NCBI GenBank assembly: GCA_022834735.1
Contig: BQKD01000001.1
Span: 2,581,659 to 2,645,658 of the forward strand
Direction: 5' to 3'
DNA: 64,000 bases
From: Erysipelotrichaceae bacterium OPF54
GTDB lineage: Bacteria; Bacillota_I; Bacilli_A; Erysipelotrichales; Erysipelotrichaceae
The notes under the pieces were generated by a model. That model ran no database searches, had not been told where the DNA came from, and was given only the letters and a program-made list of their open reading frames with translations. Of this stretch, positions 26,297 to 63,037 are shown one piece after another (positions within the stretch are counted from its first letter, which is position 1; every line of letters begins with the position of its first letter). The translations under genes and the position numbers were made by a program.

Positions 26297-26926
26297 TTAC
26301 ATTGTAAGGATCGTTTCCTCTAATTCTTTTGTGTCGGCGGCTGTATGAGCCACTCCGTCAAACTCATAAGGCCCGGCAAAACCATACGTCACCCCGATAA
26401 ATTTCACACCGGTCTGCTCTGCGCCGTTCCTGTCAAAGATCCGGTCTCCGACCATGATCGTTTTTTCATCGCGGCCCAGTTCATGGATCACTTTCTCTAT
26501 GATCTCTTTTTTATCGGTCATCGTTTCATCCAGGTTGCTGCCGACGATCAGATCAAAATACTGTTCCAGATCAAAATGATCAAGGATCTTTCGGACGTAC
26601 ACTTCCGGTTTCGAACTTCCGACAGCCAGACGGATCCCTTTGGATCTCAGCAAAGCGAGCAGCTCCGGGATGCCCGGATATACTTTATTTTCAAAAATGC
26701 CTTTTTCGGAATAATATTCCCGATATACGCTCACAGCTTCTTTTGCCTGCCTTTCGCTGAAACTGTAAAACTTCATGAACGAACGGCTGAGCGGAGGCCC
26801 GATAAACCGGCGCAGCCGGCTGATATCCTCTTCAATTCCATAATGTCTCAAGGCGTACTGGACCGATTTTGTGATTCCCTCTTCAGAATTGGTCAGCGTG
26901 CCATCCAGATCAAATATAACGATCAT
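26297..26926 (-). CDS. HAD hydrolase, phosphoglycolate phosphatase-like
   Basis: The 209-residue HAD superfamily phosphatase shows all four motifs: IFDLDGTLTNSEEG, a VGSSKPEVY Ser motif, the Lys (DKKEIIEKV), and MVGDRIFDRNGA. The cap is a small helical insert (residues about 15-80), which places it with the Gph/PGP subfamily. It lies 17 bases after a Cof-type HAD gene in the same operon. The actual substrate cannot be told from sequence. Confidence 0.9.
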   Translation of the reverse strand: MIVIFDLDGTLTNSEEGITKSVQYALRHYGIEEDISRLRRFIGPPLSRSFMKFYSFSERQAKEAVSVYREYYSEKGIFENKVYPGIPELLALLRSKGIRLAVGSSKPEVYVRKILDHFDLEQYFDLIVGSNLDETMTDKKEIIEKVIHELGRDEKTIMVGDRIFDRNGAEQTGVKFIGVTYGFAGPYEFDGVAHTAADTKELEETILTM

Positions 26927-26943
26927 TTATATCACCTTGTTCA

Positions 26944-27753
26944 TCATAGCACATACTGCCGGATCAGGTCAGCGATCGCATCTTCGTCATTGGTCGTTTC
27001 AAGGATCACATCGCATTCAGGCTTCATGGTTTCTACTGTATTGGCAACGCCGGCACCAAGCCCGGCTGCCCGGATCATGGACAGGTCGTTGTAGTTGTCG
27101 CCCACGGCTGCCATTTCCTCTTTTCTGATTCCCAGCAGATTGCCCAGTATGTGCATTGCCGCCCCTTTGTTCACCCCTTTTTTATTAAATTCGAGGTAGC
27201 GGTTGGATGAATAGGAGACATCCAGATCTTCTGTCATATGAACCATATCCTGTTCGATCTGATTGAGGTATGCGCGATCCGTATTCACATAGAGCACCTT
27301 GATTATTTCCTGCCCTTTCAGAAAATCAAGATTTTTATCATCGAATGCCGTAAAAGCCATGCGTCCGTTCAGATAGTCGATCTCGCCGTCGAAGATATTG
27401 TAGATCCACACCGTTTCCAGAGTATATACGTGAATGCACACATCATACTTCAGACCGTTGAAAAACAGCTTCTCTGCCGTATCGAAATCGAGCCCTTCAA
27501 AGTGGATCAGGCGGTTATCCTTATTTTCCGTTATAACGCCGCCGTTATAGGATATCGTATATTCTCCTTCCATGTCTTTTGATCCGATTTCCTCGAGCGT
27601 TGTCTGAATGCTGGAATAGCCTCGTCCTGTCGCGCATACAAACTTTACACCCTTGTCCCTTGCTTTCTGGATGTATTCGCGGTTTTTCAAGCTGACCGTA
27701 CGGTCTGTGCTCAATAATGTTTCGTCAAGATCGCTTGCGATTAATTTGATCAT
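26944..27753 (-). CDS. Cof-type HAD-IIB hydrolase
   Basis: The 269-residue sugar-phosphatase-like protein starts MIKLIASDLDETLLSTDRTV. It has the Thr motif CATGRGYSSI, Lys in NKKGVNKGAAMHIL, and the fourth motif VAAVGDNYNDLSMI. The large cap domain between motifs 1 and 3 is the type IIB kind. Family members dephosphorylate sugar phosphates, nucleotides or FMN-like compounds. It is the first gene of a two-HAD operon. A perfect sigma-A promoter and a terminator-containing leader of about 150 bases precede it, so its expression is probably sensed through the RNA. Confidence 0.93.
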   Translation of the reverse strand: MIKLIASDLDETLLSTDRTVSLKNREYIQKARDKGVKFVCATGRGYSSIQTTLEEIGSKDMEGEYTISYNGGVITENKDNRLIHFEGLDFDTAEKLFFNGLKYDVCIHVYTLETVWIYNIFDGEIDYLNGRMAFTAFDDKNLDFLKGQEIIKVLYVNTDRAYLNQIEQDMVHMTEDLDVSYSSNRYLEFNKKGVNKGAAMHILGNLLGIRKEEMAAVGDNYNDLSMIRAAGLGAGVANTVETMKPECDVILETTNDEDAIADLIRQYVL

Positions 27754-27764
27754 AATTTCCTCCT

Positions 27765-27799
27765 AAAAAAAGGGAGAGCGGTATTCCCGGACCGCTCTC
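27765..27799 (-). terminator. Attenuator in the HAD operon leader
   Basis: On the minus strand the nine-bp stem GAGAGCGGT/ACCGCTCTC with an eight-base loop is followed by at least seven T residues, and then by the AGGAGG of the first HAD gene. Confidence 0.85.
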
Positions 27800-27902
27800 A
27801 ATGTTACCTTTCTAAACTTTCCATTATTTCACTTAACTCTGAAATAATTAATCCCCAGGAAACAGCAACTCAACTCTCCCTATAAAGTGTGTTTCTATTT
27901 CC
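27800..27902 (-). ncRNA. Unassigned structured leader RNA of the HAD operon
   Basis: The transcript from about 27902 contains nested helices: GUUGC with GUAAC, UUUCC with GGAAA, and AUUAUUUC with GAAAUAAU (27824-27848 region). Its 5' segment AGGGAGAG (27774-27781) is fully complementary to CUCUCCCU (27771-27778), which includes the 3' arm of the terminator. Two exclusive structures, terminator and antiterminator, can therefore be drawn. The layout is that of a riboswitch or protein-sensing leader. I cannot match it to a known class. Confidence 0.55.
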
Positions 27903-27908
27903 ACCCTC

Positions 27909-27937
27909 AATATACCAAGGTAAAGTTGTTCTGTCAA
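27909..27937 (-). promoter_or_regulatory. Promoter of the HAD operon leader
   Basis: On the minus strand, TTGACA (27932-27937) and TATATT (27909-27914) are separated by exactly 17 bases. It starts transcription near 27902. Confidence 0.88.
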
Positions 27938-27973
27938 CGAAATGTATTTAAAAAAACACATTTTTTAAACATA

Positions 27974-28037
27974 TTTTCCCTGAGTAAATTATTGGTTCAA
28001 CCAAATTTTCCCAAAGTAAATTATTGGTTCGACCAAA
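27974..28037. repeat. Exact tandem pair of 32-bp repeats
   Basis: Two units, 27974-28005 and 28006-28037, differ at three of 32 positions. Each carries an inverted repeat, TTGGT with ACCAA around a short centre. They lie directly upstream of the HAD leader promoter and could be operator sites. They are also just downstream of the GDPD gene. Confidence 0.85.
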
Positions 28038-31697: not shown

Positions 31698-31757
31698 ATG
31701 TGTTTTCCTCCTGTGATTTGAGCATTTACCGGGGCTCAATCGGCCAGAGTGTAGCCA
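31698..31757 (-). promoter_or_regulatory. Candidate L13 leader
   Basis: The short leader between promoter and rplM contains the hairpin UUGAGC with GCUCAA around CCCGGUAAAU (about 31716-31737), preceded by a GGCUACACUCUGGCC segment that can form a second helix. This resembles the Firmicute L13 autoregulatory leader in position and size. Assignment to that class is inference. Confidence 0.5.
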
Positions 31758-31763
31758 AGTTAA

Positions 31764-31791
31764 ATAATACCAAAAAGGTCCGGTTTGTCAA
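31764..31791 (-). promoter_or_regulatory. rplM promoter
   Basis: On the minus strand, TTGACA (31786-31791) and TATTAT (31764-31769) are 16 bases apart. It gives rplM-rpsI their own transcript. Confidence 0.85.
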
Positions 31792-31809
31792 TTGAAAATA
31801 TATTTTATT

Positions 31810-50336: not shown

Positions 50337-50446
50337 GGTTTTCTCCTTTCGTTTATTCTAGATAAACATACTCCATGCGAATTACCTGACCTCACCCATG
50401 ACAACGCTTTTCAGTGGGTCAGCAACCTCGCACTTCTTCGCAATGC
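50337..50446 (-). promoter_or_regulatory. rpsJ leader with possible regulatory hairpin
   Basis: Between promoter and rpsJ, CUGACCCAC can pair with GUGAGGUCAG (one bulged A) around a loop of about 17 bases, and GUUUAU pairs with AUAAAC just upstream of the ribosome site. No T run is present. This may be an autoregulatory leader of the S10 operon; no known class is assigned. Confidence 0.4.
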
Positions 50447-51712: not shown

Positions 51713-51737
51713 TCGACTATTAAAAAATGTCAAAAGA

Positions 51738-51848
51738 ACTCTTCTTTCATCCAGACTATAACTGTTGCTGCCGGAGTTTCGCCGGCTCGGCCCGAAGGTT
51801 CGCGGAGTATACCGCCAGTAGAGAATTTCACTCTGCCCTGAAGATTTA
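51738..51848 (-). ncRNA. FMN riboswitch (RFN element)
   Basis: On the minus strand the conserved aptamer blocks appear in order: AUCUUCAGGGCAGAGUGAAA, then UCUCUACUGGCGGUAUA, GCGAACCUUCGG with GCCGAGCCGG, and UUAUAGUCUGGAUGAAAGAA closing P1 with UCUUC. It regulates the RibU-like transporter and the PNPOx-fold gene. It represses at high FMN through the hairpin at 51678-51712. Confidence 0.95.
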
Positions 51849-51895
51849 TCTTATGCGCCTTCATTATAATCCAGGGCATTTTCCATGTAAATAGA

Positions 51896-62888: not shown

Positions 62889-62997
62889 CAATATTCAAAA
62901 GAAAAGTCTGCGCGAGGGCAGACTTCAACATCATTGGTAAGTATGACCCCTCGGTAACATGATTAAGCAGATTGCCGTTACTGTCTTTGGAATATTG
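62889..62997 (-). ncRNA. L10 leader with attenuator
   Basis: The leader shows the L10-binding pattern CAAAGACAGUAACGGCA, then UGCUUAAUCAUGUUACCGAG. A terminator stem AAGUCUGC/GCAGACUU (62904-62925) with T residues follows. CAAUAUUC (62990-62997) pairs perfectly with GAAUAUUG (62889-62896), closing the whole element. It regulates rplJ-rplL by L10(L12) binding. Confidence 0.85.
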
Positions 62998-63037
62998 ATA
63001 ACAATTTTATATTACTTATAATTTCTGATTTGTCAAA

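Follow-up and report, generated by a model that had tools for sequence, protein, structure and literature searches.

A conserved, terminator-bearing leader RNA upstream of a HAD phosphatase operon in Erysipelotrichaceae: a candidate transcription attenuator

The FMN riboswitch (RF00050) is often terminator-controlled in Firmicutes. Among HAD phosphatases, AraL of B. subtilis is reportedly a sugar phosphatase of low specificity with regulated expression, control being said to run through the structure of its mRNA. The trpB and fthC motifs, candidate RNAs described in the available part of PMC11109978, consist of hairpins followed by an intrinsic terminator; the fthC motif has three hairpins, the third of which is terminator-like, and 69 representatives, in Streptococcus only, with a proposed upstream ORF. 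The sole mention of the Erysipelotrichaceae in that part of the text is the idnO motif, which lies between manX and idnO (PMC11109978). In the HMP-PP riboswitch (thiS motif) the aptamer is embedded in the terminator, according to the title of PMC6478431. A term search within the accessible text of PMC11109978, PMC8632094 and PMC6478431 did not find the word "phosphatase", and a full-text literature search returned no paper that we recognised as describing the leader reported here.

This leader lies on the minus strand of a 64,000 nt stretch of Erysipelotrichaceae bacterium OPF54 DNA (below, the window), directly ahead of two HAD phosphatase genes; its features are collected in Table 1. The original prediction had called its promoter perfect, and the TTGACA-17-TATATT arrangement is indeed present, but 11 of the 12 consensus bases make that wording slightly too strong; the leader, put at about 150 bases, measures about 138 nt from a start that we infer to be near 27902, and its RNA would begin with GGAAAUAG. 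The strong terminator claimed just before the ribosome site is there, with stem, U7 tract and AGGAGG all on the minus strand, and Pfam and NCBIfam agree that a Cof-type gene (TIGR00099) and a Gph-like gene (HAD_2) follow. Since the terminator abuts the ribosome site, the HAD genes can be read from the leader promoter by read-through only. Both promoter and terminator are assigned by their consensus, and a consensus scan around the locus gives 7 promoter-like sites where 7.5 are expected (the leader promoter being the best of the 7) and 7 terminator-like sites where 3.8 are expected. The closest solved structure to the Cof-type protein by sequence is YidA (1rkq, E 1.9e-31); this likeness is compatible with a sugar-phosphate phosphatase and does not show it to be one.

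Table 1. Positions of the leader, its parts and associated features (window coordinates unless a locus or contig is named)
Feature	Position	Strand	Remarks
Cof-type HAD-IIB phosphatase gene	26944..27753	-	TIGR00099, 146.1 bits (cut-off 137); ATG at 27753
Gph/PpaX-like HAD phosphatase gene (HAD_2)	26297..26926	-	Pfam/NCBIfam
Sigma-70-type promoter	27909..27937	-	TG before -10
-35 box TTGACA; -10 box TATATT	27937-27932; 27914-27909	-	Spacer 17 nt
Leader RNA, inferred start to end of U-tract	27765..27902	-	~138 nt
Helix P1	27858..27902	-	GGAAAUAG...CUGUUUCC plus inner helix; engages part of AGGGAGAG
Helix P2	27823..27848	-	AUUAUUUCA/UGAAAUAAU
29-nt block UGGGGAUUAAUUAUUUCAGAGUUAAGUGA	27829..27857	-	Identical in both species
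Putative antiterminator strand AGGGAGAG	27874..27881	-	Invariant
UUCCUGG, possible inner antiterminator strand	27855..27861	-	Can pair with terminator loop CCGGGAA
Intrinsic terminator hairpin	27774..27799 (stem 27799-27774)	-	9 bp, 8-nt loop
Conserved terminator loop CCGGGAAU	27790-27783	-	
Terminator U-tract	27765..27771	-	U7, after CC
Ribosome binding site AGGAGG	27759..27764	-	Directly 3' of U-tract
Operator-like site TTTACCTTGGTATA	27911..27924	-	Overlaps -10 box
Operator-like site TTTACTCAGGGAAA	27975..27988	-	
Operator-like site TTTACTTTGGGAAA	28007..28020	-	32 bp from the TTTACTCAGGGAAA copy
Second palindrome TTGGTNNAACCAATAA, two copies	27989-28004, 28021-28036	-	One per 32-bp repeat
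Relic of leader terminator, third genome	L066 3700-4059 (G002:C115)		
Noncoding locus of ~490 nt	L072 ~1501-2000 (G000:C1 ~2252902-2253400), L071	-	Between GntR and MATE genes
Tandem TetR-like gene pairs, two species	L087, L088, L093, L086		TTTACYNNGGTAAA palindrome at start
Known leaders in the window	51735-51849; 62891-63008; 50349-50446		Rfam: FMN riboswitch; L10 leader; S10-Clostridia leader

The leader is very probably a genuine, conserved and uncatalogued RNA. Rfam 15 has no match at gathering score in 27765-27937; between 27700 and 28050 only two irrelevant eukaryotic models appear up to E 10 (E 1.1 and 4.4), and the homologous locus of Firmicutes bacterium M10-2 (L032) has no match up to E 1. 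The Rfam scan that had been suggested as a check thus upholds the original prediction in that no relevant family is found. The FMN riboswitch model, which has a hit elsewhere in the window, gives none in the leader, and a link to the phosphometabolite or flavin ligands that the original prediction mentioned is at most conjectural.

Conservation of sequence is the strongest evidence that this predicted RNA is real. The leader is 85% identical between the window and M10-2, where its copy precedes the orthologous HAD gene (73% identical at the protein level) with the same neighbours, and the promoter stretch (27903-27940) is 84% identical. The two HAD genes that follow are less conserved than the leader (68% and 60% identity), and identity at third codon positions of the Cof-type HAD, Gph-type HAD, GDPD, gdhA and SDR genes is 39-48%. 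In the aligned 11.8-kb block, the remaining intergenic stretches longer than 20 nt, six in number, have identities of 31, 44, 50, 53, 56 and 85%; the last of these (window 31704-31809), which lies before the gene taken as rplM, is conserved like the leader and is perhaps a ribosomal-protein leader, with no Rfam leader at gathering score. Of all 138-nt windows of the aligned block, 6.5% attain the conservation of the leader, most of them within rpsI and rplM. The terminator sequence GGTCCGGGAATNCC occurs once per genome in all three genomes of the genus. In the third (G002) only the terminator half of the leader is present, beside an apparent insertion-sequence end; after it, a histidine phosphatase gene stands where the Cof-type HAD would be, followed by the Gph-type HAD. 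The remaining leader, GDPD and the Cof-type HAD were not found in this draft of 150 contigs.

From the two leaders we made a model (R1) and used it to search 272 genomes of the family, 294 of the order and 395 of the class, in draws that overlap; the larger scans used stricter filters, by which weak matches are lost, and M10-2 is taken as absent from the class draw. Among the genomes searched, matches above 30 bits were found only in the window's species (G000) and in M10-2 (G001). Eight weak matches, seven in the family and one in the class (G493, 29.9 bits), were called chance after their alignments were viewed; that in G493 is inside an ORF resembling, by eye, the GTPase BipA/TypA, and one in G126 overlaps the end of an ORF. 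Nothing was found when viral contigs were scanned for 28 of the 29 invariant bases. The leader hairpin is absent before the ribosome site at 49 of 52 related HAD loci (some of which are the same place twice), so a HAD gene elsewhere does not need it; the three loci that have it (L032, L033 and L034) are from the window's species and M10-2 (twice). The scan behind this count had a loop limit of 9, two of its loci (L016 and L025) have less than 250 nt upstream, and L031 matched a partial protein whose upstream region was not properly read. Some terminator-like hairpin is present 84-98 nt upstream at L011, L014 and L048. We note that two Selenomonadaceae loci, L016 and L019, have terminator-like hairpins with a loop of 12, seen by eye; that of L019 was rejected as a HAD leader and is read as the terminator of the upstream gene.

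The leader is predicted to fold into P1, P2 and the terminator. Its folding z score is -2.18 for the window, where 6 of 200 shuffles do equally well, and -2.28 for M10-2 (4 of 200). All 27 tested pairs in these helices are standard in both species, although they were chosen on the same two sequences, which favours them: 22 are invariant, three differ on one side, and two differ on both sides, a C-G to U-A change in P1 and a G-C to A-U change in the terminator. P1 keeps 15 of its 15 tested pairs and the terminator 9 of 9, each including one of the two-sided changes. When partners were slid by 1-3 columns as a control on the two-row alignment, 42-55% of cells were paired. The observed values of pair conservation are attained in 130 of 500 shuffles; this shuffle control is therefore not passed, as is expected of an alignment of two sequences only. 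RNAalifold, unaided on the same alignment, recovered P1 and the terminator, did not predict P2, and drew a different small hairpin there. P2 does form in the single-sequence folds of both species, and its AUUAUU/AAUAAU pairing is possible in M10-2 despite a 4-nt length difference; it has no covariation between the two. The original prediction had named helices without conservation in relatives as what would count against it, and in M10-2 both the leader and its pairing are kept.

Two mutually exclusive folds had also been proposed, in which a 5' segment pairs with the 3' arm of the terminator. The complementarity stands, AGGGAGAG being exactly complementary to CUCUCCCU, part of that arm, but AGGGAGAG lies about 22 nt into the leader and not at its very 5' end. 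It falls within an 11-nt invariant run, and its M10-2 partner is UUCUCCCU, with one G-U pair. On three measures, 8-25 of 1000 dinucleotide shuffles do as well as this outer pairing in the window, and 58-210 of 1000 in M10-2, where it is not clearly above chance. Our own scan found 19 terminator-like sites in the window, and that of the leader ranks first among them in the strength of the upstream complement to the 3' arm. An inner helix is possible between UUCCUGG, at the end of P1, and the terminator loop CCGGGAA, and it nests inside the AGGGAGAG/CUCUCCCU helix. In duplex energy, 2 (window) and 38 (M10-2) of 1000 shuffles equal this inner helix; in run length, 75 and 95 do. Together the two helices would occupy most of the terminator loop and 3' arm, which could explain the conservation of the loop, also in G002. 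The terminated fold is more stable than the best fold containing the outer helix by 7.5 kcal/mol in the window and 8.7 kcal/mol in M10-2, and more stable than folds with both helices by 9.5 and 13.1 kcal/mol, respectively. P1 is complete within the first 46 nt of the leader. Because the terminated fold is computed to be more stable by about 8 kcal/mol, the default state of the leader is probably OFF.

Three operator-like palindromes, which the original prediction had not mentioned, overlap or precede the promoter. When at most one mismatch is allowed, three locations of the 64-kb window carry TTTACYNNGGKAWA, each of them at the leader promoter and 32 and 64 bp apart; these give 4 matches (one place matching on both strands), for a shuffle mean of 1.14, and four are reached in 2 of 100 shuffles. 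Two or more copies of TTGGTNNAACCAATAA occur in 6 of 100 shuffles. Window positions 27975-28036, between the GDPD gene and the promoter, form a 32-bp tandem repeat with the palindromes TTGGTNNAACCAATAA and TTTACYNNGGGAAA. Genome-wide, TTTACYNNGGKAAA has 8 matches versus 5 for a control pattern in the window's species, 4 versus 3 in M10-2 and none in G002, and TTACYNGAGTAA has 9 versus 5, 5 versus 7 and none; these counts are near their controls and prove little, and the positions say more. In both species operator-like sites lie at the start of two tandem TetR-like gene pairs, which are perhaps autoregulated; Pfam confirms TetR_N for four proteins of the window's species, and no TetR subfamily model reached its cut-off for the tandem proteins. 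Sites are also found in both species upstream of the GH1 gene of a PTS IIA/GH1 operon (by eye in M10-2; the PTS IIA and GH1 domains were confirmed in the window's species) and between genes for a PTS IID protein and a glycolipid-type glycosyltransferase (again by eye in M10-2). The simplest reading of this distribution would be a repressor of the TetR type whose regulon includes some sugar genes. A mannonate dehydratase-like gene was rejected as a regulon member, its site (G000:C1:2517340, L103) being inside ORF 506-1642, and 144 nt downstream of another site (G000:C1:731930, L099) is an unidentified ORF. Two further loci of this genome, L091 and L092 (G000:C1 near 2820469 and 2934100), are more than 100 kb apart and have an identical ORF list and sequence round the operator site, which may be a duplication or an artefact of assembly; the contamination listed for this genome is 9.27%.

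Taken together, these findings make it likely that the leader attenuates transcription of the HAD-phosphatase operon in cis; we infer its start, default state, switching and regulation as follows. Polymerase would start near 27902 and P1 would form at once, holding part of AGGGAGAG, followed by P2; the terminator hairpin would then form and halt transcription just before the ribosome site. An effector, which might be a ligand, a protein that binds RNA, a second RNA, or a ribosome or polymerase that has paused, would open P1 or prevent it, and the freed AGGGAGAG would pair with CUCUCCCU, perhaps along with UUCCUGG and CCGGGAA, so that the terminator would be blocked and both phosphatases made. 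Initiation would be separately controlled by a repressor, probably of the TetR type, at the palindromes that overlap and precede the promoter, and such control may place the HAD operon in a carbohydrate-related regulon.

One candidate for a partner RNA is a noncoding locus of about 490 nt. The next-best R1 matches of both genomes fall in it and are mutually orthologous; their scores, 16.6 bits (E 2.1) and 17.2 bits (E 1.1), are in themselves at chance level. The ~490-nt stretch is 75% identical between the two species, versus 45% at third positions of the GntR gene, and it contains no ORF of at least 80 amino acids, no tRNA and no tmRNA. On its minus strand a conserved promoter-like stretch follows operator-like sites, and the locus ends before GntR with a hairpin of at least 10 bp and a U-tract; neither is in the output of the consensus scanner, whose loop limit of 8 this hairpin exceeds with its loop of 9, and this promoter and terminator are our own reading. 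Against Rfam, L071 has sub-threshold matches only (SpF25 sRNA, 31.0 bits, cut-off 48, E 0.043, on the other strand; mir-268, E 0.15), and the locus may possibly represent a new large RNA. Just before its putative terminator is TTCACTTAATTGTAAAATAATCAATCC, identical in both species, which can form 23 Watson-Crick pairs and one G-U pair of 27 with the 29-nt block of the window's leader, and one fewer in M10-2. In an ungapped comparison, shuffling the partner RNA gives a match as good in 1 (window) and 2 (M10-2) of 1000 cases, and shuffling the leader does so in 0 and 1 of 1000, values that do not amount to genome-wide significance, the locus having been picked by a genome-wide search; of 820 own-genome chunks 2 score as high, both of them overlapping pieces of L004, a locus fetched for its resemblance to the leader. 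RNAduplex, run on the whole leader and the ~490-nt RNA, is not informative: 55 and 33 of 300 shuffles do equally well, and the other strand is about as good. The near-complement is suggestive only, and the locus is worth testing because of its operator-like sites and double conservation. A circuit of two RNAs, in which the ~490-nt RNA, under the same TetR-type operator, would pair over 27 nt with the 29-nt block, melt P2 and so shift the choice between terminator and antiterminator, has in our judgement a small chance of being correct.

Other explanations of the leader were weighed against a cis-acting attenuator. A small-molecule riboswitch would be a special case of it, with P1, P2 and the 29-nt block forming an aptamer for a HAD-related (phospho)metabolite whose binding selects the fold. 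Bases conserved outside the helices, including the 29-nt invariant run, and a terminator/antiterminator platform ahead of metabolic target genes speak for this, but no relevant Rfam match was obtained even at E up to 10, no junction or pseudoknot was recognised in the leader, and among the genomes searched it is present in two species of one genus only, whereas most riboswitch classes are distributed more widely than that; we consider a riboswitch unlikely. Less probable still is an element that does not switch, a constitutive terminator or a partial insulator whose one effect is to lower HAD expression. The much greater stability of the terminated fold and an M10-2 antiterminator pairing that is within reach of chance would suit such an element, yet it would hardly keep 85% identity over 138 nt, with a 29-nt block far from the hairpin, and we rate it as very unlikely.

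The leader could instead be a free-standing, trans-acting small RNA, with the HAD genes living on read-through. Its own promoter and terminator, its high conservation outside the helices as well, and the near-complement of the 29-nt block on the minus strand of the conserved ~490-nt locus all fit a trans-acting RNA. This complementarity alone is not rare genome-wide, however, M10-2 too has the leader ahead of its HAD gene, and the U-tract ends about 12 nt before the start codon and abuts AGGAGG, as in attenuators, which together make a free-standing RNA quite unlikely in our view. Translation of a leader peptide might also be coupled to attenuation, AGGGAGAG then being the ribosome site of a short ORF. 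TTG (window) and GTG (M10-2) codons do lie 7 and 6 nt after AGGGAG, but the frames that follow differ (LLFPGD in the window, 20 codons in M10-2); a frame of nine codons, LGINYFRVK, is open in both species with the same stop, but its first codon is CTG in the window and TTG in M10-2, no ribosome site precedes it, and nearly all of it falls within the identical block, where its conservation is indistinguishable from that of the nucleotides. Moreover, conserved bases continue across the 4-nt length difference. No ORF with a usual start and a ribosome site was found in both species, and for want of such a shared frame we judge a leader peptide to be extremely improbable.

If a cis-acting attenuator is the correct explanation, the leader would add an uncatalogued RNA regulator of phosphatases, and its effector would point to their substrate. 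The operator-like sites would tie these phosphatases to TetR-type control, perhaps together with sugar genes, in little-studied relatives among the Erysipelotrichaceae, and the possible partner RNA makes a model of trans-acting riboregulation directly testable.

Compared with the described systems, the leader shares terminator control with the FMN riboswitch (RF00050) and does not match its model. AraL and the Cof-type enzyme, which are likened here by description, are both HAD phosphatases with regulation in view. The HMP-PP riboswitch, with an aptamer reportedly inside its terminator, has different target genes; the terminator loop of the leader is conserved too, but the leader has no Rfam match. 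Evidence for a counterpart in the leader of the upstream ORF proposed for the fthC motif is poor. The trpB and fthC motifs, compared here by the Rfam scan only, are like the leader in having hairpins and an intrinsic terminator, and differ in genes and taxa. The palindromes at the leader promoter resemble TetR-family operators in that such a palindrome is also found at the promoters of tandem genes with TetR_N domains.
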